Virus record (IMG/VR): IMGVR_UViG_3300027506_000017
Coordinates: 1 to 25,400 of that record
Length of the DNA: 25,400 nucleotides
DNA from: a virus
Direction: 5' to 3' (one strand)
Part shown: piece by piece, positions 2,916-25,400 of the stretch
Layout: each line of letters starts with the position of its first letter
Numbering within the stretch: position 1 is the first letter of the stretch
Notes under the pieces: model-generated
The model's input: the letters and a program-made list of their open reading frames with translations, nothing else
What the model was told of the DNA's origin: nothing
Databases searched by the model: none
Program-made: the position numbers and the translations under genes

Positions 2916-2951
2916 TACTGTAATATGCCGTCACTTTTCTACTGTAATATG
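2916..2951. repeat. 12-bp direct repeat TACTGTAATATG, two copies 24 bp apart
   Basis: Exact copies lie at 2916-2927 and 2940-2951, in the 107-bp gap before the glycosyltransferase gene. They may be tandem binding sites or promoter -10 elements; neither ATG within them has a ribosome binding site. Confidence 0.7.
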
Positions 2952-2965
2952 TGGCTCGTTTTTTT

Positions 2966-2970
2966 AAGGA
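2966..2970 (+). promoter_or_regulatory. ribosome binding site deciding the start at 2976
   Basis: AAGGA lies 5 nt before the ATG at 2976. The in-frame ATGs at 2925 and 2949 have no such site. Confidence 0.6.
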
Positions 2971-2975
2971 ACATG

Positions 2976-3971
2976 ATGAAAGTAGCAGTTCAAAAACCAA
3001 TTATGGGGGGTGCCTTTAAGTTTATTCTTTATGGCATTATCAATGCACTAGAGGCTGCGGGCGTAACGGTTGTTACCACGCAGCATATTGATCTAAAAGA
3101 GTCGGACGGGATCGAGCTTTACATCGGTTCGCTGTCGCATTCAAGATTACAGCTGTTCGGCGAGGATATGTCGCTTTTTCGGCGGTTGCCTGGCTGTCGA
3201 TATGCACTGCATGCCCAGCCGTTTGTCGATAAACTTGACGATTTGAAGGGAATTGAGGGCCGGCCGAGCCTTGATCCGACAAATCTTGACCGAAAAATGG
3301 CTGCCATTGTCAATCCGGAGGTGATTTGGGGCTACGGATGGGATATTCACGCAGATTTGTGGAGCAAATGGGACAGAAAGTGGCAAAGTTTTATGCCAGC
3401 GGGCGATTCGGTCGCATATTATGACCAGCAGAAAGGTCGCAGAAACGATGTTGTGTTTCTGGGAGGCGATTGGCCCTACAAACGGCCGGCGATCAACGCA
3501 ATTCTTAGTCGGCTTACATCAATTGACCCAGATGTAAAGTTATCGGCAGCTGGGTGGGGCCGAAGCAAGACTATTCCATTTGGTCAGGGCAATACCTACC
3601 TTAATTCGGGCCGAGTCGGCTTTTGTCCTAGCGAACCGCACACGCAACTGCTTGGAATTGACGTTCCAGAGCGTGTTTTTAAGCTTCCGCTAGCTGGAGT
3701 GGCCGCTGTGCATGACAAAGTGCCGTTTTTAGGGCAAATGATGCCCAGTGTGCCGATCGGAAGCGATGGAATTGCCGTTGCAGAGCTGTGTTTTAACCTT
3801 TTAGAGCACGAAATGAACCGTTTAGCTGTCCAAATTGCCCAAAAACAATGGGTTTTGCAGCATCATACGTACTTTTGTAGGCTAAAATCGCTGGCTGAGG
3901 CTCTAGAAATGCCTGTTTTAGCCCAAAAATTGGCCGAAAAAATACCAAATTTGACTGAATCTGGAGTGTAA
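2976..3971 (+). CDS. CgeB-like glycosyltransferase
   Basis: This is a 331-residue, probably GT-B fold glycosyltransferase that would move a sugar from a nucleotide-sugar to an unknown acceptor. The start MKVAVQKP opens the first Rossmann-like strand. The C-terminal half shows the CgeB / Glyco_trans_1_2 pattern: a strand with VVFLGGDWPYKRP at about 158-170, then a conserved segment at about 211-246 (VGFCPSEPHTQLLGIDVPERVF then KLPLAGVAAVHD). In that family this segment carries the nucleotide-sugar-binding 'P.R.FE..A.G' element; here the acidic residue after F is K. The ATG at 2976 has AAGGA at the right distance; ATG 2973, 2949 and 2925 are less likely. It stops directly against the large terminase ATG. 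A glycosyltransferase between the terminase genes is unusual; it might decorate virion proteins, modified bases or the host surface. Confidence 0.75.
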   Translation: MKVAVQKPIMGGAFKFILYGIINALEAAGVTVVTTQHIDLKESDGIELYIGSLSHSRLQLFGEDMSLFRRLPGCRYALHAQPFVDKLDDLKGIEGRPSLDPTNLDRKMAAIVNPEVIWGYGWDIHADLWSKWDRKWQSFMPAGDSVAYYDQQKGRRNDVVFLGGDWPYKRPAINAILSRLTSIDPDVKLSAAGWGRSKTIPFGQGNTYLNSGRVGFCPSEPHTQLLGIDVPERVFKLPLAGVAAVHDKVPFLGQMMPSVPIGSDGIAVAELCFNLLEHEMNRLAVQIAQKQWVLQHHTYFCRLKSLAEALEMPVLAQKLAEKIPNLTESGV

Positions 3972-5492
3972 ATGCACTCAAAAACGACAAAAAAGGTGCG
4001 TTCTTTGCTGCTTCATCAGAAGCAGGCGGACTTTGTAAGCAGTTCTGCCAACATTAGTGCCCTTTTAGGCGGCCGTGGAGTGGGAAAAACCTTTTCTGGA
4101 GCCGTGAAAATCCTCACTCAGGCCAAAAATGGCGAGCCTTGGATGAGTGTCAGCCCAGATTCCGGCATTATTTTGGACACGACGCTGCCAACGTTCATTG
4201 AAATATGCCGACATTACAAGAAATTGATCAGGTACGTCCGCAGTCCGTATGCTCGGGTTTGGTTTAAAACGCAGGATGGGGGCGAGGCCAACCTGATTAT
4301 GCGATCCGGCGAGGCGCCGGAAAAGCTCAGGGGTCCAAATAAGGCTGGATTGTGGCTTGACGAAGCTTCGATCATGAGCCGAGACGTTTTTGACATCGGC
4401 ATTGCTACGTTGAGGATAAAAAACGCTGCAAATCAGGTGTTTTTGACAATGACACCCCGCGGTATCCACCATTGGACGTTCAGTCTTTTTTACCAGCTGG
4501 TGGATGAGTACGAGCAATTGCAGATCGATCCGGCGAGGCTAGTGCAAATTTCCGGACAAACCTACATGACGCGCGACAACACAGAGATCATTCGCGCAGC
4601 AAGCTATGAAAACCCGTTTTTGCCCGATGGGTACGCCGACCGATTGCGTGCCGAGTATTCCGAGGAGTTTGCCCAGCAGGAGATCGAGGGAAACTTTATC
4701 GATCTTTCAGGGCTTATGTTTAATCGATCAGATTTCCAATTCATTGACGCCATTCAGGTGCCAAGACTTGGAACTCGGGTGCGGTACTGGGATCAGGCGA
4801 GCACGCCAGGCAGTGGAGACTTTTCAGTCGGCTTGTTGATGTGCAGAGACGCGTCCGGAAGATTTATCATTGAATCGATTGTTCGGGGGCAGTGGTCAGC
4901 AAAGGAGCGTCGTGACATCATGAAACGCACAGCTGCCGTGGATGCCGAAAAATACAACAATGAGGTCGTAATTTACGTCGAGCAAGAGCCAGGCAGTGGT
5001 GGAAAAGAGCAGATGGATCAAAACGTTACATGGCTAGCGGGGTACCCCGTTTACAGAGACAAAGTAGCCGGATCGGGAAAGCGAAAGGTTCAAGGCGTTA
5101 TGCTGCCCAATCAAGCCAAAGTTGTCCGCGCCCAGCCACTATCCGCAATGGCGGAAAATGAAAACATTTATTTGGTTAGGGGCAAATGGAACGAACGCTT
5201 TCTTGGCGAATTGTCGTCATTTCCAGAAAGCAGGCACGACGACCAAGTTGATGCCGCGTCAGGAGCATTCAATAAACTTGCCCAGCGATCGAGCAGCAGG
5301 GTTTCTCCGGAATTGCAAAAGGTCAATCAATTGCAAAGTCATGCCGCTAGAATCTTGCAAATGGCGGAGGACAGCCGGCTGCAACAACTAAGTGAGCTGG
5401 GCAATGCGGCAAAAAACAAACCAGCCAATTCGCCCGAGCGGTTGAAACGGGGGTTAGATGATAGTGCAAGAGGAGGTTCGCATGTTGTTTGA
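3972..5492 (+). CDS. terL: phage terminase large subunit
   Basis: This 506-residue protein is the packaging motor: an ATPase that drives DNA into the prohead and a nuclease that cuts genome ends. The ATPase domain shows Walker A GGRGVGKT at 33-40, Walker B LWLDEAS with D130 and E131, and coupling motif LTMTPRG at 158-164. The RNase H-like nuclease domain has its acidic residues in place: D274 (YWDQAS), E337 (YVEQEPGSGG) and D423/D424/D427 (SRHDDQVDA). The length is normal for the family and all key residues are present, so the protein should be active. The ATG directly follows the TAA of the glycosyltransferase, and the 3' end overlaps the next gene by 11 bp. The tail after about residue 445 is a Gln/Leu-rich helix, possibly for portal contact. 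Confidence 0.95.
   Translation: MHSKTTKKVRSLLLHQKQADFVSSSANISALLGGRGVGKTFSGAVKILTQAKNGEPWMSVSPDSGIILDTTLPTFIEICRHYKKLIRYVRSPYARVWFKTQDGGEANLIMRSGEAPEKLRGPNKAGLWLDEASIMSRDVFDIGIATLRIKNAANQVFLTMTPRGIHHWTFSLFYQLVDEYEQLQIDPARLVQISGQTYMTRDNTEIIRAASYENPFLPDGYADRLRAEYSEEFAQQEIEGNFIDLSGLMFNRSDFQFIDAIQVPRLGTRVRYWDQASTPGSGDFSVGLLMCRDASGRFIIESIVRGQWSAKERRDIMKRTAAVDAEKYNNEVVIYVEQEPGSGGKEQMDQNVTWLAGYPVYRDKVAGSGKRKVQGVMLPNQAKVVRAQPLSAMAENENIYLVRGKWNERFLGELSSFPESRHDDQVDAASGAFNKLAQRSSSRVSPELQKVNQLQSHAARILQMAEDSRLQQLSELGNAAKNKPANSPERLKRGLDDSARGGSHVV
5471..5476 (+). promoter_or_regulatory. ribosome binding site deciding the start at 5482
   Basis: AGGAGG lies 5 nt before the ATG at 5482, inside the end of the large terminase gene. 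It favours ATG 5482 over the in-frame ATG at 5458. Confidence 0.8.
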
Positions 5493-6164: not shown

Positions 6165-6248
6165 ATGGCAAAAACGAGCGTGCAGGGGTACGATTCGGTG
6201 ATCCAATTCTTTTTGTGTGAAAAGCAATATGCCAAGCGACAGTTTTAA
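6165..6248 (+). CDS. possible 27-residue micro-ORF
   Basis: ATG at 6165 opens MAKTSVQGYDSVIQFFLCEK and stops with TAA at 6246-6248, in a frame different from the following gene and overlapping its start by 20 bp. The peptide reads plausibly, but there is no ribosome binding site, so this may be chance. Confidence 0.2.
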   Translation: MAKTSVQGYDSVIQFFLCEKQYAKRQF

Positions 6249-7335
6249 TCTTGCCGAGGCCATGCGCAATCCAGCCACAAGGCGCGTTGCGATGGATTTA
6301 GAGGCCGGCCTTGCTGCTCACGAGAAAGGGCAAATGAGCCGCACAGCTTTGGATCGTCGCATACGTAACTACAGAGATGCAACAAATCAAAGCCAAGTCG
6401 CCAATTGGCGGAACGACAACCGCAACACAGCCAGACGTTCGAACGCGAATACAAAGGCAGCATTGACCGCGGCATTCGGCGGATTTGCCAAAGCTAAAAA
6501 CGTATTTAAAAGCTTGCTAGGCACAAAAAAGGCAGGAATGTCAAATGAGGACATTGAGACAACCGCAGATTTGATTCGTGATTACGTTGAGAATCAGTCA
6601 AATCCAAAGAAAATGGAGCAGGGTGCAAAGCGAGCGTGGCGAGAAAAAGGCTACATTGTTCGGCCAGATGATGACGACGATGAAGTGCGTTCGGATCGGG
6701 ATCGAAGACGGCAACATCGGCATTCCGACTTTCAAGAAAGTCGTCGCAGAGCAATTAGGCGAGGCGAGGATGATAGCGGTCGGCTAAGCAAAAAATACTT
6801 CACGCCATCCTCAAGTAATGTGTTTTCGTTTCAATATGATTATTCAATTAGCGTTTTGTATGTGTGCTACAAGGCGCCGGCAATAAATCCTGATTCAGTT
6901 AGTGGGTATTACTCAGAGGGCGGCATACCTACGGTGGCAGGAACGTTGGGAAGCACGGTCATGGGCAAGACTGACTCGGCCGGTTCGCTTTACGCGTATT
7001 ACGATGTCCCGATTGGAAAGTTTAAATCCATGATCACCTCCGCAAGTGCTGGAGGAGCGGTATGGGATCGGTTGCGAGTTCGCCATACAGTGTTTGGGAC
7101 GCAGCATCGATATTCGCTGGTAGCTGGAGCAGTTATTGATGGACCTGACGGCGATCCAGCAGTTTATGTACACAGAAGAGCAACAAAGCAAGGCTTTCGA
7201 TCGCGTAACGTTGTGGAGCCTGGCAGTGGCAGGCGCCGTTACGTCGGCAGCTCGCTTCCACAAGATTTAAGAGGACACGGCCGGACGTTGCGGCCAAATC
7301 GCGGAAAAAAATCACGGCCTAACAGAGGGAAGTAA
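6229..7335 (+). CDS. KTSC-domain protein with basic C-terminal tail
   Basis: The protein (368 residues from ATG 6229; a GTG at 6217 is an alternative) has an N-terminal helical region, about 1-130, an Asp/Arg-rich low-complexity stretch around 143-185, and a C-terminal domain at about 195-300 resembling KTSC. The latter has SSNVFSFQYDYSISVLYVCY, then GSLYAYYDVPIGKFKSMITSASAGGAVWDRLR, matching the family pattern 'S..I..v.Y......L.V.F..G..Y.Y..VP...y..l..A.S.G..f...IR', but with some 35 extra residues between the two halves. The C-terminus is very basic and ends in two RPNRGK copies. KTSC domains are frequent in phage proteins, with unknown molecular role. The stop overlaps the next ATG by one base. 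A nucleic-acid contact through the basic tail is inference. Confidence 0.65.
   Translation: MPSDSFNLAEAMRNPATRRVAMDLEAGLAAHEKGQMSRTALDRRIRNYRDATNQSQVANWRNDNRNTARRSNANTKAALTAAFGGFAKAKNVFKSLLGTKKAGMSNEDIETTADLIRDYVENQSNPKKMEQGAKRAWREKGYIVRPDDDDDEVRSDRDRRRQHRHSDFQESRRRAIRRGEDDSGRLSKKYFTPSSSNVFSFQYDYSISVLYVCYKAPAINPDSVSGYYSEGGIPTVAGTLGSTVMGKTDSAGSLYAYYDVPIGKFKSMITSASAGGAVWDRLRVRHTVFGTQHRYSLVAGAVIDGPDGDPAVYVHRRATKQGFRSRNVVEPGSGRRRYVGSSLPQDLRGHGRTLRPNRGKKSRPNRGK
6399..6410. repeat. recurrent palindrome, copy 3 (12-bp core)
   Basis: CGCCAATTGGCG, here read as V-A-N-W-R, a different frame from copies 2 and 4. Confidence 0.8.
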
Positions 7336-7810: not shown

Positions 7811-10800
7811 ATGTCATTTCGAGATATGCCAAATCAGCGCAGCGAGTCTAAAGTTCCACCTCGTCAGGTGCCGGCCTCGCATTTGCAAAAACACATAAAA
7901 GAACCTTACCAGTCATCTTGGCCAACCGGCGGAACGCCTTGGGGCGGTGGTACGTTCCTTCCGCACATCTTTACGGTTGCTGGGCGATATGGAGTTGCAT
8001 CAAAAGCATACTCCGTTGGTGACGAGGCGTTAATTGACAGTCGCGAAAACGCAGAAATGATGCGTAACGAGCTGGCAATTATGGAATGCCTCGAAGCTCG
8101 CATGCGATCCACAGCTCTTTTAAATTGGCATATCGGACCTAGAGACGAAACGTTAGATCAACGCACTAAAGCGACGCTGGCAAAGTCTGGGTTTGGCAGG
8201 TCAAACAAATGGCAAGCCGATGAGTTAGCTGCAAAGGTAAGCCTAATTTTGGCACGCACGCCGCATCTCACAAAATTGTTTTATTCATTGATGGATGCAA
8301 TTTGGTATGGGCGTTACGCTACGGAACAGTTTTGGCAACCGACTTCAATTGAGGGTTTAAGTAATCGCGCAATGATTATTAAGCGCTGGGAACCAAGGCA
8401 CGGCGACAAAATTATTTTTCGGTATGACGACGGGACGCAGGAGTACGATCCAGAGCAAATTGGCATTCGAATTGGGCCAGGCTACAAAATGCAACAGGAG
8501 TTTCGCGACTATGGCGGCAACCTGCACAAAAAAGTAGAGGCTACTCAGTTTGGATTAGCGTACTTTTTAGATGGTGCTGAAAGAAAAAAGTACGCCTTGC
8601 ACAAACACATCATTGAGGATGGAGATTTCAACCGACCAATTAAGGCTGGTAATCTGCACGGCGTAGGAATACGGTCAAGAATTTATTGGTCGTGGTATGC
8701 CTACACAGAGTCGTTGAAATTGCTCATGGAATACTTGGAGCGATCGGCATTAGGTATAGAGATTTGGAGATACCCAGCTCACAATCCACAAGCAAAAGCG
8801 GACGCGGCCGAGGCAGCCCAGCGTCGAGGAGCGCCTGGCCGATCGATCCTAATGGTTCCCGTGCCTGAGGGCGAGGCAGCCGCAATGTATGACGTAGAAA
8901 TCGTAGAGCCTGGCCTGCAAGGGGCAGACGTTCTGCAAAACGTTTTGCAGACATTTTTTGGTCACAAAATTAAGCGATACATTTTAGGCCAAACATTAAC
9001 AACTGAAGCTGATGCTACCGGCATGGGTTCAGGTATGGCCGATTTGCACGCCGCAACATATTCGGATATTGTCCGCTTTGACTCGCTTGGCCTTGCAGAA
9101 ACAATTACACAGGACATCGTTCGTCAGATTCAGTTGTTAAATTTCCCAGGCAGCGAAGGAATACATCTGCAATTTCGGTTCGACACCGAAAGCCCAATGA
9201 TGCAAATGAAGCTAGACGCCTATCGTCAATTATGGGAAATGGGTGCAAAAGTTAAAACAGATGATCTGTTTAAGACAATTGGAGCGTCACGCCCTAACAC
9301 TACTGACGAAACGCTGTTGAATCCAGCCTATTTTGAGATGGAACAAATGCAGCAGCAGCAAGGCATGGCGCCAGCAATGGACTTAGGTGCAATGCAAATG
9401 CCGGAGGGAGAGGAGCAGGCCGGTGACGCTGAAATGGCGCAGGACATGTTAATGCCGGCAATGATGGATCAATTTTCCGCTGAACCAATCATTAACGCGC
9501 AACCGCGTTACTCACAACCAATTACTGCACCGCAAGACAACGAAACAGTCGAAACGGATGTCATGCGATTTGCGGCGGAGATGTGCGAAAAATACGGCAA
9601 TGACGCATGGCAATCGTACGTTGACCGATACGGTCAGGGCGGCTTTGATTTTGAAAGCTCGGAACCCGAAGCCAGCTCGGACAAAGGGTTCCAAGAAAGC
9701 TTTGGGTTTGCAGAGGAGGCTGAGCCAAACAGCAAGGGCGAGGTTCAATCAGGTTTGTTTGGCAACGAATACAAGGCCGGAAGTTATACAAAAAAAGACA
9801 AGGACATTTTGCCAGAGGGATTTTTTGAGGCACAAAAGTCAGCTCCAATGACTCCGAGACGAACGAAGGCTCCGTTGCGGCCAGCGCCCAAGGGGATGTT
9901 TGATGAGACAGCAATTCCAGCAACCGCACAAAAATCTGCCAAAGAAGTGTTTACAGAGGGACTTCCGGCAGCCGATCGAGAAGCTCTGTACATGGCTGGT
10001 TACACAATTGACGATTACTGGAAAGCAATTAGTTCTGGCGACAAAGAGCTAATAAAACAGATTGCAAAATTATTGCCGAGCACAGCACCTGCGGTAGAGG
10101 CGGCAACTAAAAACCTTCCTCCGTCGGATGGAATGCTATTTTCAGTCATGAATCAAATGATTCTGCGATATGCAACGCAGGGGTCGTTTGACTTTGAGCC
10201 TAGCGATTCGCAACCTCAAAAAAAAAGTCACGATTTAGAAAACGTTACAGGTGGTAACGCCTCAAGCTCGCCAGTAGGTAGTGAAAATCTGCACCCTCAC
10301 TCTAGCATGGTAAATCATGACGGACCTACAAAGCTAACATTAATTCCCTGCACCGGCGGGAAAAACGAAGGTACGCACAAGGCTAAAGACCTTTACAAGG
10401 GCGATAACTTTGCAAAGCATCGAAAGTATGCTGAGTCCAGCGGAAACCCTTGGGCAATTGTTTCAGCCGAGCATCACATCCTTGATCCTGATGAAATGGT
10501 TGCAAATTACGACACGCCAATGCCAAAGCGAAAAGCTGATCAGGAGCGGTGGGGGCAGCAGCTAAAACCAAAATTGCTTAACCATTTGAAACGACTAGGG
10601 GTTAATGCAGAGCACGGTGTTGAAATCGAAACATTGGCAGGAAACGATTACAACAATCCAATGCGACAGGCGTTTCTTGGTCATGAGCAGGTAAAGGGAA
10701 TTACTGCGCCAATGCAGGGGCTAGGTCAGGGCTTAAAGAAAACATGGATGGTCAACGAACTGAGGCTGAAGGATTTAGAGTCAAAGCGTAACGACGACGA

Positions 10801-13078
10801 GGAAACTTTAGAAGACCTTGCAATTGAGGGCTACGATCGCGACATTTGGCGAAAACTTGCTCCGCACATTGACGACAATGCCCTAAATGCAATTCACGAA
10901 AATCCATCCTACCACGGAGAAAGCATTGTTTTAGGGGGCATTCCATTAGACGAGGACGTTGATCTGCATTACGGATCACCGCTCTACAGGGCGTTTAGGG
11001 AGCAGGAGGAAATGGGGATTGGTATTGATGGAAATGAATTGCGTCCTGGGTCCACCACGATGACTGGAGGTAATTACGAACCAGAGTCATTAGATGACAA
11101 AGGTTTAGATGAGTACGTAAAAAATCATTACCCAAATTTGCCCTACGACGAGGCGCATTGGGATTCCGCCGGATACATATTTGCGGACGGCAGCCTTAAC
11201 GACATGGGCCACGGGCAGGGGCAGAGAGCGGACGACCACAGAAGCGTAGTAGCAACCGACGACGCGTTAAAACGATGGGGGTTTAGCAAAGAGCAGCAGG
11301 ACAGCCGAACTTTGGCAATGAACGAAATGATGCGGCGAACTAATATGGCAAGAATTCATATTGGCGGTGGTGAATCTGGAACCGATTTGCAATTACACAT
11401 CGAGGCTCCCCTTACAAGTGCTCAAGAAGCCGCGTTGACATATTACGTAAAGCACTATCGACCGCAAAACGTTTTTTACGACATTGGTGGCGGGTTTGGC
11501 TATGCTGAGGACAATAAGTCCGGCGAAATAGACAACCCGAGATCATTTAACGACGTTTTAAATCACATGGAGGGTGCTGATAATGAAGACGAAGACGAAT
11601 ATGATTTAGATCAATATTCAGCTGACCTAAGCAGCTCGGGAGGCGCCGACGATCACAGCTGGTCGGACTACGGAAATGACACCTACGGACTTGCGACCAA
11701 CATGAAGGGCGTTGGCAAAGGTGAGGCAACTCTAAATTTCAACTCGGGAAACCCGCATTTGCATGTCGATATTTTCAGCAAGCATGACGGCGCTCCAAAA
11801 GGTTCGGGCAAGGCGATATTAAAAAACATGGCTAATCATGCCAAAAAGTATAATGCAAAGTCAATGTCGGGGCACTTTACAAATGCCAAGGCATTAGGTT
11901 CGCTTGGTTCCGCGTTTGGAAAAGACAACATTAAATTTAACCATCGTCATGACGGCAGCCCAGCGAATATATCCTACAAACAGGCAATGACAGAGCCGCA
12001 CAAATACATTTCCTCTGTTGCGTTGAGCGAAAAGCCGCAGAAATATTCAGCATCCTCGCATGATGAATCGGCAATAAGTACAGCAAATGCAACATCGCGA
12101 TCTGGCGGCGCGGTAGGTGGGCATCCGGTTACAATAAAATACGTCCGCCAATTGGCGAAAAGAAAAGTTCCAATATTAGACTTTGGTGCCGGCAAGGCAG
12201 CTGCACAGGCAAAGGAACTTAACAAAATGGGGTACAACGTTGTTCCTTACGATTACGGTAAAAACGCAGTTGATGGTGTGCATGATCCAGCGGCGTTGGA
12301 TCGCGAGTATCCGTTTGTTTACGCAAGCAACGTGTTGAACGTGCAAGATAGTATTGGGGAGTTGAAAAAAACTATTCAAGAAATTGCAGAAAGCGTTGCA
12401 GTAGGCGGTACGTTTATTGGCAACCTGCCGGCAAGTCCTCGCAAGGCTGCGTTTGACGGCATGTCGCCCGCCGATGGGGCAGACCTTGTGAAGAAACTGC
12501 TAGAACAGGCAATTGGCAATGTTCGAATAGAGGAGTCGCCAAGCCATCCAGTGTTTGTGGTTTCAAAAGGGCAAAGGCAAAGGTATTCGACAATGATTGC
12601 AGATCGCTATGAGGCCAGAATGCCAACGCGATCATCAAAAATGGGTGTTGGCAAGCAAATTGGCAATGCCGTCTACGTGCATCGGCAGTATACCGGAACA
12701 ACTCCCGAAGCAGAGCGAGTCAAACAAGCTGCAAAATGCGCAGGTAGTTGGGCGTGGGATATTGCAAAAATTACGCCAGAATCAATTTCGTTAATTAAAA
12801 GCCCAGACTTTGACAATTGCGATGAGCCAATTTCGGGCGATTCTCTAGTTGTTCGCAATAATGGATCAACACGACTGGTGTCGCAGCATTCTGATCCCAA
12901 TATTTACCATCACAAATGGCTAATGGTCGGCGATGACTACAAGGGGTTTGATGTTGAGCAAAGCAAACAACGCAGTAGTCAGTGGATTCAATTGCCTATT
13001 GATAAGTCAAAAATTGGCAAGCAATCGTATTGGCAAAAGCATGTTATTCCGTTAATTGACAAATGTAACGACGCATAA
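7811..13078 (+). CDS. DUF935 (Mu gp29-like) portal fused to a polyvalent enzyme tail (DUF6884, GNAT-like, SAM methyltransferase)
   Basis: This 1755-residue protein starts with a DUF935-type portal (about 65-510), the dodecameric DNA gate of the head; the segment MECLEARMRSTALLNWHI to TLTTEADATGMGSGMADLHA is typical, and normal family length is 400-520. A Met-rich hinge (about 510-560) and low-complexity linkers follow. Residues about 840-985 match DUF6884 (LIPCTGGKN, KDLYKGDNF, WAIVSAEHHILDPDE, YDTPM, ETLAGNDY). About 1120-1225 has a DDHRSV motif and fits a polyvalent-associated domain. About 1300-1380 resembles a GNAT (GSGKAILKNM...A..LG..FG). About 1438-1583 is a class I SAM methyltransferase, with motif I ILDFGAGKAAA and ASNVLNVQ. 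A last domain has KQIGNAVYVHRQYTG. The frame is unbroken. The enzymes' substrates are unknown; DNA modification is a guess. Confidence 0.88.
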   Translation: MSFRDMPNQRSESKVPPRQVPASHLQKHIKEPYQSSWPTGGTPWGGGTFLPHIFTVAGRYGVASKAYSVGDEALIDSRENAEMMRNELAIMECLEARMRSTALLNWHIGPRDETLDQRTKATLAKSGFGRSNKWQADELAAKVSLILARTPHLTKLFYSLMDAIWYGRYATEQFWQPTSIEGLSNRAMIIKRWEPRHGDKIIFRYDDGTQEYDPEQIGIRIGPGYKMQQEFRDYGGNLHKKVEATQFGLAYFLDGAERKKYALHKHIIEDGDFNRPIKAGNLHGVGIRSRIYWSWYAYTESLKLLMEYLERSALGIEIWRYPAHNPQAKADAAEAAQRRGAPGRSILMVPVPEGEAAAMYDVEIVEPGLQGADVLQNVLQTFFGHKIKRYILGQTLTTEADATGMGSGMADLHAATYSDIVRFDSLGLAETITQDIVRQIQLLNFPGSEGIHLQFRFDTESPMMQMKLDAYRQLWEMGAKVKTDDLFKTIGASRPNTTDETLLNPAYFEMEQMQQQQGMAPAMDLGAMQMPEGEEQAGDAEMAQDMLMPAMMDQFSAEPIINAQPRYSQPITAPQDNETVETDVMRFAAEMCEKYGNDAWQSYVDRYGQGGFDFESSEPEASSDKGFQESFGFAEEAEPNSKGEVQSGLFGNEYKAGSYTKKDKDILPEGFFEAQKSAPMTPRRTKAPLRPAPKGMFDETAIPATAQKSAKEVFTEGLPAADREALYMAGYTIDDYWKAISSGDKELIKQIAKLLPSTAPAVEAATKNLPPSDGMLFSVMNQMILRYATQGSFDFEPSDSQPQKKSHDLENVTGGNASSSPVGSENLHPHSSMVNHDGPTKLTLIPCTGGKNEGTHKAKDLYKGDNFAKHRKYAESSGNPWAIVSAEHHILDPDEMVANYDTPMPKRKADQERWGQQLKPKLLNHLKRLGVNAEHGVEIETLAGNDYNNPMRQAFLGHEQVKGITAPMQGLGQGLKKTWMVNELRLKDLESKRNDDEETLEDLAIEGYDRDIWRKLAPHIDDNALNAIHENPSYHGESIVLGGIPLDEDVDLHYGSPLYRAFREQEEMGIGIDGNELRPGSTTMTGGNYEPESLDDKGLDEYVKNHYPNLPYDEAHWDSAGYIFADGSLNDMGHGQGQRADDHRSVVATDDALKRWGFSKEQQDSRTLAMNEMMRRTNMARIHIGGGESGTDLQLHIEAPLTSAQEAALTYYVKHYRPQNVFYDIGGGFGYAEDNKSGEIDNPRSFNDVLNHMEGADNEDEDEYDLDQYSADLSSSGGADDHSWSDYGNDTYGLATNMKGVGKGEATLNFNSGNPHLHVDIFSKHDGAPKGSGKAILKNMANHAKKYNAKSMSGHFTNAKALGSLGSAFGKDNIKFNHRHDGSPANISYKQAMTEPHKYISSVALSEKPQKYSASSHDESAISTANATSRSGGAVGGHPVTIKYVRQLAKRKVPILDFGAGKAAAQAKELNKMGYNVVPYDYGKNAVDGVHDPAALDREYPFVYASNVLNVQDSIGELKKTIQEIAESVAVGGTFIGNLPASPRKAAFDGMSPADGADLVKKLLEQAIGNVRIEESPSHPVFVVSKGQRQRYSTMIADRYEARMPTRSSKMGVGKQIGNAVYVHRQYTGTTPEAERVKQAAKCAGSWAWDIAKITPESISLIKSPDFDNCDEPISGDSLVVRNNGSTRLVSQHSDPNIYHHKWLMVGDDYKGFDVEQSKQRSSQWIQLPIDKSKIGKQSYWQKHVIPLIDKCNDA
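9641..10206. repeat. repeated peptide motif RY..QG.FDFE (two copies in portal linker)
   Basis: RYGQGGFDFESS at about residue 606 and RYATQGSFDFEPS at about residue 788 sit at matching ends of two linker segments between the portal and the DUF6884-type domain. They look like short linear motifs, perhaps processing or docking sites. Confidence 0.5.
12146..12157. repeat. recurrent palindrome, copy 4 (12-bp core)
   Basis: CGCCAATTGGCG, read as R-Q-L-A just before the methyltransferase motif I in the giant portal fusion. Confidence 0.8.
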
Positions 13079-21846: not shown

Positions 21847-22128
21847 ATGGCTTCTTTAGGCACTTTAACCGCAGCAAACCCAACATCAACAGTCGTCGCT
21901 TGGGCAGGCGGCCAAGGGCTATTCAGCACAACCGGCACTATGATCACGCAAGGTGATCCCTGCGTTTGCATTCTTGAATGCGACGACACGGGTGTAATGC
22001 AGCCGGCCGGCGATGCTGTTTTGCACACTAGCCCAGCAAAAATTACGTTCTTTCTTCCACCGTGCAATATTCAGGTTCGGTGCGTAACTCCTGATTCTAA
22101 TACTTCAGTAGAGGTTTTTGTCTCCTAA
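21847..22128 (+). CDS. small beta-rich virion-like protein
   Basis: A 93-residue protein (MASLGTLTAANPTSTVVAWAGGQGLF...TSVEVFVS). The ATG at 21847 is favoured because AGGA at 21837-21840 lies 6 nt upstream; ATG 21841 would sit directly against it. The opening 'LGTLTAANPT....W.GG.G.F...GT' and the alternating strands fit small phage structural proteins that occur beside fibre or head genes, and the size suits a decoration or fibre-associated beta-sandwich, but I cannot name a family with confidence. It contains four cysteines, which is many for its length. The stop TAA overlaps the ATG of the following fibre gene, so the two are translationally coupled. Confidence 0.75.
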   Translation: MASLGTLTAANPTSTVVAWAGGQGLFSTTGTMITQGDPCVCILECDDTGVMQPAGDAVLHTSPAKITFFLPPCNIQVRCVTPDSNTSVEVFVS

Positions 22129-25100
22129 TGTATATCGACATAACTGCGGCCAACGCTCCAAATTTTCTCCGAAACTACGGCGTTGCTAGAGACATAGCCG
22201 ACACTCAACTTGCGCATGACATAAGCCGCAAGCTAATAGAATGGGAGGCCGATCCGTCTGGAACGATAGGCGAACTTGTTGAGTTTGCTCAAGCTTTAGC
22301 AATGGGCGAGGACTGGCTTGCAGAAAAAGGCGTTGTTGCAGACACCTCGACAGAAGGCGCGCCTCGCACACCACGCCCTGGCACCGCACTCAACTTTACG
22401 GCAACGGAGTATGTCAACGCGGGGAGTATGCCCGCATTTGGCAGTCAGATGTCGGGCGGCATTTGGTTTAGAGGCAGCCCAACACACAGTGCGGATGCCG
22501 GTTTGTTTTCGGCCTACAGCGTCACCCCCGATCCCGACCGATCTCTTAGGTTTTATGTGAACACATCAGGCCAGTTGCTTGGGTATTTTAGCGACGATGG
22601 AAGTACCGCAACCCAAATCGCTGGCGCACTCAGCACGCCCACAATGCCTCTTGGTTTAAATGATGGTCAATGGCATCATTTTTGGTTTACATTTGACGCT
22701 GGTGCGTGGAAATTTTACATCGACGGAATGTTAAAAGGCACGCAGGTGACATCCCAGACAACCATCAGGGTTCCCACCACGCCGCTTCTTATCGGAAGCG
22801 ACTTTCAGGGGAACCGTAAATGGTTTGGCCAGTTGTTTGATTTTAGGCTTTACGACACCGTTTCAACAGCCGACCATGTGTGGGCGTTGTGGCTGCAAGG
22901 CAAACAGCCATGGAAGGTTGCCACGGGGCAGCCGGAATATCCCGTAAGGCATTACCCGCTAAGTTCGGGCAGCCGACATGCGGCATTTGCAGCTCAAGGT
23001 TTAGGAGCCGATCAGTACGCCACCACCGTTCCATTTACTGACGAAAACTGGGATATATCAAATCCTTCCGGTGGGGGGTTTGTAGACGGAGAGGTGCAGC
23101 TGTCTGGAAGCTACGTTTCGCTTCGCCCTGCGGCACCGGAAAACCAAGTTCTTCGGGGCGGCACATCGTACCTCGTTACGTTGGTAATTAAGGACTGGAA
23201 CGGTGGCCATATACAGTTCCGACCATACGTGGGAGGCACCACAACAAACATCGTGACCGCTAGAACTTTTGCCGGAGCTGTGGCTGGGCCAATTACCATT
23301 CAGCAGATCGTTGAGATGCCCAAAGCGAATGGGTTGGGTTATATAAACTTCCAAAGCAACTCCGGCGGCACGACCCGAGAAATGACTGTTGTTAATTTTA
23401 AGGCGCAAGAATACCACTCGATCAATGATTTGACCGCCAACATTATCAACAGCAGTGATGACACCGTTTACATTGGCAGCGATGTCCCGTTCAGCCCGCA
23501 AAACCTAACAGGGTCAACCACACACTGCCGCTACAATTTTGATTCGTCTGACCACGTTCAATGGGATTTAGCCGGTTTTGATGTTCCGGAGCAATTCAGC
23601 TGGCGGTTCATTTTTACCGTTGAAAGTTTTGCAAACAGTAGTGGCGGCACCCATGTTCACACGCTGGTTTCTTCTGGCTACATCTCGCCATATTGGATTG
23701 GACCGTATAATCCGTCAAATTTTAGAGTTATCTACAAAGACAGCAGCAATGCCCAGCAGGTAGTATCGGCCTATGGCGACATGACGTGGTTGGAGGGTGT
23801 GGAATATGACCTTACTGTTGATTTTGATTCAATTGCGGGCACCATTACTCTGACAGAGGCTAATTACGGGCAGTCACATGTACACACCATGCCCAACGGC
23901 CTGTATGGAGTTCGGGGCGGAGTGACCATGTTTGGTGGGTATGGAAGCGGGGCGGCAGCGGGGGCTAATTTTGACGGCTCCATTGACTTTATCCAATACA
24001 AAAAGGCTGGCACAACGGTGCTTGAGCTAGATTACCGGCAGGACGGGCTTGTAAGCGCATCTGATGCCAAAGTTGCCACCGTGGGCTTCCCGACATTCAA
24101 TGGATTAGACACTTTTCCAGAGCTAATAAGCACCCCGTCCAAGGCCATTGATCGCACGAAGGACAGTTACGGCCAAGGGTCTGTGCAACACGCCGGGCTG
24201 TGCCCCAAGCAAGGCCAACTCGTGAACAGCGGTTGTGCCACACTTGATGGAAACGATTATATCACCTCCAGCGTCGCGCCAACCAGTTACCAGCAAGTCA
24301 CAGTCGCATCGTGGGTGCGACTGTCAACAAATACGCCATGGCCATTTGTTTTCTCAACTACTTCGACAAACGCTGGGTTCGAATTAGCCCTTGCAAATTC
24401 AAACAGGTATGTCGTTTGGCGTGTAAAAAATGGCGCGGCTTGGTATGACGCGACAACGCTGTACAGAGTGCCGGTTGGGGAATGGATTCACTTGGCAGCC
24501 ACATATGACGGGCAGGCTTTACGTGTTTACATGAATGGTCAATTGGCTGCTGAAACTATTCAACCCAATATTGATTTCGGTACTGGGGCGGGTAATATCC
24601 TCATGGGTCAACGGGGTGGATATTATTGGTACGGGCAGCTCATGAATGCCCGTGTGTATGACCGTGGTTTATCAGCATCCGAAGTGGCAGCCGTTTATGA
24701 GGGCAACGGCACAAACACCGACCTTCAAATTCACTGGCCTATGTCTGAAACGGTTGGGACAACAGTTCATGACGCTAGTGGTAATGGCAACAATGGCACA
24801 GTGTCGGGCGGGAGCATTGATGACTTCTGGGAAACAAAACAAACCCTGTTCCACCACAACGTCAGCAAGGGGTGCGATGTTGTTGCCGATTTTCCCAATA
24901 ATGGAGGGACTGGGAAAAACCCAACATGCCCGCAGCCTGTTGGTGCCAATTCCTGTTATTCATTTTGGTTTAATTCGCGGAACAATTCAGCAACTTCTAA
25001 CTTGTTCCGAAACAGTGGAATTGCCTGCACGATTTTGCCAAACAACCTGCGATTCACCTACGCCGCCATCCTTGATTATCACTTCAACACTACTGGCACG

Positions 25101-25400
25101 TTGGCCGTAAACGAGTGGCATCACTGCACCATCAGCGTTGACGACAATGACGCGACATTGTATTTAAACGGCGTGTTCAGCGAAACAGTATCGGGAAGCC
25201 AAAACCCAAACCAAGGTGGGACAATTTTCATTGGTGGATACGGCACGTTGGGTGGGCTGTTCAAGATGGCAGATTTCATTGTGTTGGATCGGCCAGTCAC
25301 AGGCGCGGCAGAGGCGGCCAGCATTTACCAAGGCAACGTCCCGTCAGACGCCTTGGCCGCCTACAAATTGGCGGGCAGCCTTGAGGATTCTACAGGCAAC
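22128..25400 (+). CDS. LamG/concanavalin-repeat tail fibre or adhesin (3' end beyond the window)
   Basis: The ATG at 22128 overlaps the previous stop (TAATG), and the frame stays open for 1,091 codons to the last base, so the gene continues outside. Residues 1-75 are helical and may be the virion anchor. LamG-like (Laminin_G_3) beta-sandwich units follow: about 85-262 (WHHFWFTFDAGAWKFYIDG, LYDTVSTADHVWALWLQG), about 702-862 (WIHLAATYDGQALRVYMNGQL, RVYDRGLSASEVAAVYEGN) and about 904-1073 (WHHCTISVDDNDATLYLNG, VLDRPVTGAAEAASIYQGN). Another begins at the edge (AAYKLAGSLEDSTGN). Residues 265-655 hold two further beta-sandwich, carbohydrate-module-like units. Such domains bind glycans, so adsorption to a host surface is likely. 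No lyase or peptidase motif is seen. Confidence 0.85.
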   Translation, partial: MYIDITAANAPNFLRNYGVARDIADTQLAHDISRKLIEWEADPSGTIGELVEFAQALAMGEDWLAEKGVVADTSTEGAPRTPRPGTALNFTATEYVNAGSMPAFGSQMSGGIWFRGSPTHSADAGLFSAYSVTPDPDRSLRFYVNTSGQLLGYFSDDGSTATQIAGALSTPTMPLGLNDGQWHHFWFTFDAGAWKFYIDGMLKGTQVTSQTTIRVPTTPLLIGSDFQGNRKWFGQLFDFRLYDTVSTADHVWALWLQGKQPWKVATGQPEYPVRHYPLSSGSRHAAFAAQGLGADQYATTVPFTDENWDISNPSGGGFVDGEVQLSGSYVSLRPAAPENQVLRGGTSYLVTLVIKDWNGGHIQFRPYVGGTTTNIVTARTFAGAVAGPITIQQIVEMPKANGLGYINFQSNSGGTTREMTVVNFKAQEYHSINDLTANIINSSDDTVYIGSDVPFSPQNLTGSTTHCRYNFDSSDHVQWDLAGFDVPEQFSWRFIFTVESFANSSGGTHVHTLVSSGYISPYWIGPYNPSNFRVIYKDSSNAQQVVSAYGDMTWLEGVEYDLTVDFDSIAGTITLTEANYGQSHVHTMPNGLYGVRGGVTMFGGYGSGAAAGANFDGSIDFIQYKKAGTTVLELDYRQDGLVSASDAKVATVGFPTFNGLDTFPELISTPSKAIDRTKDSYGQGSVQHAGLCPKQGQLVNSGCATLDGNDYITSSVAPTSYQQVTVASWVRLSTNTPWPFVFSTTSTNAGFELALANSNRYVVWRVKNGAAWYDATTLYRVPVGEWIHLAATYDGQALRVYMNGQLAAETIQPNIDFGTGAGNILMGQRGGYYWYGQLMNARVYDRGLSASEVAAVYEGNGTNTDLQIHWPMSETVGTTVHDASGNGNNGTVSGGSIDDFWETKQTLFHHNVSKGCDVVADFPNNGGTGKNPTCPQPVGANSCYSFWFNSRNNSATSNLFRNSGIACTILPNNLRFTYAAILDYHFNTTGTLAVNEWHHCTISVDDNDATLYLNGVFSETVSGSQNPNQGGTIFIGGYGTLGGLFKMADFIVLDRPVTGAAEAASIYQGNVPSDALAAYKLAGSLEDSTGN

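Follow-up and report, generated by a model that had tools for sequence, protein, structure and literature searches.

A phage portal protein with exchangeable in-frame enzyme tails joined at a candidate processing motif

One ORF of the window (the whole IMG/VR record, 25,400 bases) was found to encode, in a single frame, a Mu-type portal followed by a long tail of unrelated domains, several of them enzymes. Such tails recurred throughout a phage lineage, and the tail is a cassette swapped at a short motif between phages with nearly identical portals. Near-identical portals bear quite different enzymes, joined at a motif resembling a site of the capsid-maturation protease, which points to a use of the portal for loading enzymes into the head.

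The portal ORF and the domains of its tail

The ORF at 7811-13078 (+) started with ATG, comprised 1755 codons and contained zero internal stops, as an earlier note on this DNA had described (features in Table 1). The DUF935 portal that the note had placed in the N-terminal part was confirmed by Pfam: Portal_Mu (PF06074, DUF935) matched residues 82-491 (E 1e-33; 117.5 bits vs. a cut-off of 23.9), covering profile positions 6-335 of 336. The portal core was 41-56% identical to its relatives and, in the portal tree, was sister to the clade formed by L193, L194, L195, L205 and L222 (support 100/99). A family match was sought for the linker (residues 511-840), and none was found. As candidate slippery sites for early termination within the tail, two in-frame runs of seven A were noted, at codons 660 and 803, both far downstream of the portal core.

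Table 1. Features of the window, with coordinates, strand and basis of the assignment.
Feature	Coordinates	Strand	Basis
Large terminase (TerL; lineage marker, motif-free control)	3972..5492	+	Pfam, relatives
fam0, 372 aa, upstream of portal	6217..7335	+	lineage gene family
Single ORF, Mu-type portal and polyvalent tail, 1755 aa	7811..13078	+	reading frame, Pfam
Portal core, residues 38-510	7922..9340	+	Pfam, relatives, tree
Linker, low-complexity, residues 511-840	9341..10330	+	sequence
Candidate processing motifs C-E-K-Y-G (592-596) and V-D-R-Y-G (604-608)	9584..9634	+	lineage-motif variants
DUF6884 (YaaA-like), residues 843-980	10337..10750	+	Pfam
Unnamed module, residues 985-1276, AG[YF]I..DG...D...R..DHR	10763..11638	+	relatives
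GNAT acetyltransferase fold, residues 1277-1411	11639..12043	+	predicted structure
K-Y-S (1411-1413), GNAT/methyltransferase border, possible weak motif variant	12041..12049	+	sequence
Class I SAM methyltransferase, residues ~1420-1590, LDFGAGK at 1456, SNVLNV at 1506	12068..12580	+	relatives, profile
R-Y-S (1591-1593), methyltransferase/VHR border, possible weak motif variant	12581..12589	+	sequence
"VHR" domain, residues 1607-1745, phrog_16075, C-terminal domain of TIGR04096	12629..13045	+	PHROGs, NCBIfam
Giant ORF, 1530 aa	13127..17719	+	profile matches
Giant ORF, 1371 aa	17720..21835	+	profile match

The three enzyme-like domains proposed for the tail in the earlier note were recovered: DUF6884 by Pfam, the GNAT by its predicted fold, and the SAM methyltransferase by family identity and profile similarity. 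The module at residues 985-1276 and the C-terminal domain at residues 1607-1745 had been missed. DUF6884 (PF21818) matched with E 6e-27 (94.8 bits vs. a cut-off of 30). Of the two motifs of this family, CxxxK and LSAxxG (PMC11701544), the first was present as C-T-G-G-K, and the position of the second reads VSAEHH. DUF6884 is related to the DNA-binding protein YaaA and to YfjM, which interacts with DNA lesions (PMC11701544). The only PADLOC names obtained were a DUF6884-type family and a weak match to DpdC.

The module at 985-1276 was 26-33% identical to parts of giant ORFs located 3' of short portals in four loci (L214, L210, L206 and L207). In an AlphaFold model of residues 985-1425 (modest confidence), the part 1277-1411 matched GNAT acetyltransferases. 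Nearly all of the 50 structural matches listed for this part were GNATs: the best was 2g3a (Z 8.5), and AcrVA5 (6iuf), a compact anti-CRISPR acetyltransferase, scored Z 7.7. The KGSGKA sequence in this region resembles motif A, as judged by eye only.

The methyltransferase was 38-50% identical to six other proteins with the LDFGAGK/SNVLNVQ motifs, SNVLNVQ being invariant in the family, and the 50% identity was reached in the giant downstream ORF of L198. Its hhalign score with Dnd-associated methyltransferases was 32.6, vs. 19.9 or less in 40 shuffles. Since both this methyltransferase and the 985-1276 module recur in downstream giant ORFs, cargo moves between portal tails and neighbouring genes.

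The 140-residue C-terminal domain (here VHR; phrog_16075, E 8e-18 in PHROGs over residues 1607-1744) was common to the window protein and Dnd-associated methyltransferases. TIGR04096, the family of DNA phosphorothioation-associated putative methyltransferases, was matched in its C-terminal part only, and full membership was rejected (17.9 bits vs. a curated cut-off of 150). TIGR04096 proteins, with the order methyltransferase then VHR, have the same methyltransferase type (SNVLNV/GFVLNV motif) and the same C-terminal domain, but are shorter than the window protein. The VHR domain was located in 49 viral and 23 bacterial loci. Its pairing with the same methyltransferase came in either order, the methyltransferase standing first in L169, as in the window, and VHR standing first in L102, L108 and L157. 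It was also paired with TIGR04096 proteins on plasmids, and lay within giant phage ORFs as long as 3777 aa, the one in L103 carrying an ART-PolyVal domain. VHR was widespread in giant phage ORFs (loci L098-L169), and its fusion in L122 with a CCA-adding/poly(A) polymerase hints at a role involving nucleic acids. No solved structure similar to VHR was matched, and no dnd genes were recognised in the window. The DUF6884 and methyltransferase-VHR cargo could plausibly act at an early stage, either on DNA or on host defences.

Recurrence of tailed portals, cassette exchange and frameshift forms

Exact-peptide scans with the whole window protein or with its C-terminus retrieved zero relatives; these were gathered by a degenerate scan from an alignment of two portals, those of the window and of L185. 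The alignment matched 52 viral loci and 15 of 397 genomes, the latter being one class of the planctomycete phylum, drawn through a planctomycete. The closest genome match, L185, belonged to a genome of this phylum and encoded a normal-length portal (498 aa) with 41% identity. The 23 bacterial loci with VHR pointed in the same direction: 21-22 of them were Planctomycetota or had planctomycetal names, and the others included Prochlorococcus and a Myxococcales record. The host lineage is probably Planctomycetota.

Gene order was conserved in the relatives: rep1, small and large terminase, fam0, portal, at least one giant ORF, fam5, fam9 and fam8, the last judged by eye to be the major capsid protein. 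Among 48 non-redundant related portals, 22 had extensions of at least 200 aa (221-2208 extra residues), 23 were short, and 3 were frameshift candidates. The longest portal frames reached 2743 codons, and long frames were recurrent in many assemblies. On the portal tree, the tail length class underwent at least 12 switches, 9 of them forced by well-supported branches. The earlier impression that a portal is a rare carrier was thus not borne out, given the 22 tailed portals and the published fusions discussed below. Tails contained an InPase in L223, L229, L200, L239 and L248 (E 1e-40 to 1e-51) and a topoisomerase IB in L197 and L238 (E 5e-16 and 6e-20), both conserved between portals only 37-54% identical; others contained a methyltransferase, or matched less strongly a metallopeptidase, part of a sigma factor or a SAM lyase. 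One 1194-aa portal (L045:7557-11141) seemed, judged by eye, to be fused to MuF with an intein-like insert. L232 encoded two portals of the family approximately 7 kb apart (at 9872 and 16626, +), one of which ends in the frameshift manner while the other has its tail in frame.

The exchange of tails was most evident between L193 and L194, whose portal cores were 98% identical and whose tails were unrelated behind residue 600. Identity was 0.85 in residues 581-600 and approximately 0.3 or less over the next 100, and the last shared residues hold VERYS/VERYA, with the motif at 597. The same pattern of a tail swap at the motif was observed for L193/L222 and L194/L222, and the swaps preserve the reading frame.

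In the three frameshift candidates (L185, the first portal of L232, and L245), the portal stop was located soon after a zero-frame CCCTTT(T/C), a canonical XXXYYYZ heptamer, in three cases out of three; slippery heptamers were present in the last 20 codons of 20 of the 762 lineage ORFs. The -1 frame behind the heptamer stays open for 249-291 codons. Two of the three had no start codon within 130 bases of the stop, and L245 had non-ATG candidates at +35 and +44. Each of the three -1 frame ORFs started with the same kind of small module (G-x-T...RWxR, or a variant of this), and in L223, L242 and L235 that module follows the portal in frame. RNA structure downstream of the slippery sites was not above chance (fold z-scores of -0.4, 0.6 and -0.2). 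The sequences suggest fusion by -1 frameshifting in these relatives; a sequencing error in a single contig is less likely as a source, because the three cases are independent. The -1 ORF of L185 (portal at 1402-2898, -; 3' end 1400-1440) has an HExxH zincin-like site.

The junction motif and the prohead protease

The [VI]-E-R-Y-[AS] motif was first seen by eye in the protease/scaffold protein (fam5) and in the window protein, and was then tested with the pattern [ED][RK]Y[SAT] against shuffled sequences, the tails, giant ORFs and controls all being from the same lineage. Sites were enriched in fam5 (23 vs. 1.0 in shuffled sequences), tails (11 vs. 1.7), giant ORFs (17 vs. 4.0) and fam0 (10 vs. 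1.2), fam0 of the relatives often holding one [VI]ERY[AS] near residues 70-126. There were 0 sites in the terminase, rep1 and major capsid protein of the lineage, and 1 in 41 portal cores. A mixed set of other lineage ORFs had 14 sites, above its own shuffles, so that the motif is not exclusive to the four enriched groups. V or I precedes the motif at 38 of 62 sites, though this position was outside the search pattern.

With F and G also allowed in the pattern, the motif was present within 100 aa behind the core in 11 of 27 tails (shuffled mean 0.78, maximum 5 in 1000), and in none of the short portals. Its density was 13/2700 in the first 100 aa behind the core vs. 6/14992 further on (p 2.6e-7). 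When one member was taken per junction family, the motif was found in at least 4 of 17 families in every draw (mean 5.2 vs. 0.37 shuffled), approximately 10 of the 17 being without it near the core. In the window protein, the motifs behind the core were the variants VDRYG and CEKYG, not VERYA. A motif just behind the portal core lends indirect sequence support to a possible cleavage after about residue 510, the site considered in the earlier note.

The fam5 protein (approximately 490 aa) encodes the protease together with the scaffold, and was present in 18 of 20 records, including G758, home of L203, a near-identical twin of L193; the window record stops before the protease/scaffold and capsid genes and had no fam5 match. 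H35, H76 and S134 were invariant in 12 fam5 sequences. The best solved match of the fam5 model was T4 gp21 (Z 6.7), followed by herpesvirus proteases; this Z is within the range of chance matches, though biologically expected proteins top the list. The BFVD matches of fam5 were annotated prohead proteases, and searches against the PDB by Foldseek and by sequence gave nothing significant. Pfam PF10123, considered for fam5, had no match in these records and was rejected. One copy of the motif is located after the protease domain, and the scaffold has several. Assemblins cut themselves at the end of the protease domain, and we infer that [VI]ERY[AS] is the cut site of the fam5 protease.

Proposed role of the tail, known systems and other genes of the window

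We consider it fairly probable that the portal is a carrier of polyvalent cargo, anchored in the procapsid and freed by the prohead protease for injection. The Mu-type portal core would form a dodecameric ring at the capsid vertex. In known portals the C-terminal end faces the capsid interior, and here it would display the enzyme tail (YaaA-like DUF6884, GNAT, and Dnd-type methyltransferase with its partner domain); the figure of twelve copies per virion is arithmetic. During prohead maturation, a protease similar to T4 gp21 and assemblins would cut at [VI]-E-R-Y-[AS] behind the core and between cargo modules. The freed enzymes would remain in the head and then enter the host with the DNA, where they may modify or repair DNA, or acetylate host proteins, helping the phage past defences. 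Domains also shuttle to and from the neighbouring giant ORFs, and some relatives appear to fuse cargo to only part of their portal copies by -1 frameshifting. The most complete version, in which the portal of a probably planctomycetotal phage lineage is a modular loading dock whose cassettes are released at [VI]ERY[AS] by the prohead protease, some members setting the number of loaded subunits by -1 frameshifting, is proposed tentatively, its chances being slightly short of even.

The tail might instead stay attached, the motif being an encapsidation or scaffold-binding peptide and the enzymes acting in the head or at the vertex with no injection. Several motif copies in the scaffold would suit a docking peptide, and the portal fusion alone already puts the enzymes inside the head. 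We nevertheless regard this as unlikely: the motif lies where the protease domain ends, within the scaffold and at the borders of swapped modules, as processing sites would, the lineage has an assemblin/gp21-type protease, and up to twelve tails of 1240 residues would presumably crowd the packaging channel. Even less probable is a non-functional tail, generated by read-through or decay, with the enzymes as ordinary cytoplasmic late proteins. Some cargo modules do occur in separate downstream ORFs or as free proteins, but the very long open frames recur across many assemblies, the InPase and topoisomerase tails are conserved between divergent portals, and the reading frame is kept through the swaps.

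An assembly or sequencing error joining the portal gene of the window to a separate downstream gene was considered very improbable. No second contig was found over the portal/tail junction, and the nearest, L002 (95-98% protein identity to the window), spans only from the terminase to approximately portal codon 161; against this, all five closest relatives of the window portal also carry long in-frame tails (support 100/99). The single-frame architecture is not an artefact in kind, because it recurs in many independent assemblies.

Portal-effector fusions have been published, and the kind is therefore already known: fusions to PBECR, 2H and InPase (BcepF1.124) were described by Iyer et al. 2017 (PMC5512222), and a 2022 survey reported Nudix and ADP-ribosyltransferase domains on portal or other head proteins (PMC9503650). 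The link to polyvalent proteins made in the earlier note was supported, the window protein combining several unrelated domains (portal, DUF6884, GNAT, methyltransferase and VHR) in one polypeptide, among virion structural genes. As in polyvalent proteins (PMC5512222), unrelated enzyme domains are joined in one polypeptide among head genes, with GNAT, InPase and ParB-like domains in common; unlike in these, a whole lineage has the portal as a hub, with swappable tails, [VI]ERY[AS] and, in some members, -1 frame forms. For processing, embedded metallopeptidases are stressed in that work, whereas the candidate here is the lineage's own prohead protease. MuF-toxin/effector fusions and polymorphic toxins (PMC3482391) likewise have a conserved carrier with exchangeable C-terminal effector modules; compared with the MuF fusions, the carrier here is the portal, an essential ring protein in twelve copies, and not a minor head protein. 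The open-licence literature searched gave no mention of a lineage that combines exchangeable tails on the portal with a common junction motif and a frameshifted variant.

The internal proteins and Alt of T4 are packed in the prohead, cut by gp21 at a short motif, and injected. Packing in the prohead, cutting by a gp21-type protease at a short motif, and injection are proposed here as well, but the T4 cargo is unattached to the portal and its motif is (L/I)xE, whereas here portal and cargo form one covalent chain, with [VI]ERY[AS] as the motif. Beyond a few models, it is still an open question how phages load enzymes and deliver them with the DNA. This lineage makes the question directly testable: sequence defines the cut site, the protease and the natural exchanges of cargo between near-identical portals. 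If the proposal is true, injected early-acting proteins could be found by looking behind the motif, which would also be a source of new anti-defence enzymes, including the methyltransferase module shared with Dnd-associated proteins.

In the window, the portal gene lies near TerL in a head-gene cluster. Residues 1085-1313 of the 1530-aa ORF matched a ParB-like family and phrog_21, a portal profile, the latter only in its far C-terminal part, implying that other portals also carry the ParB-like module. Residues 1098-1335 of the 1371-aa ORF matched the DNA-methyltransferase family phrog_757. A glycosyltransferase-like gene (2925-3971) was located between a small-terminase-like gene and the large terminase. 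The first 1500 bases had a G+C of approximately 0.59, vs. 0.48 elsewhere, and the ORF in this region (84-1454) had homologues lineage-wide. At the other end (22128-25400), several laminin-G/concanavalin-like domains were encoded by an ORF of 1091 aa or more, left open by the end of the record.
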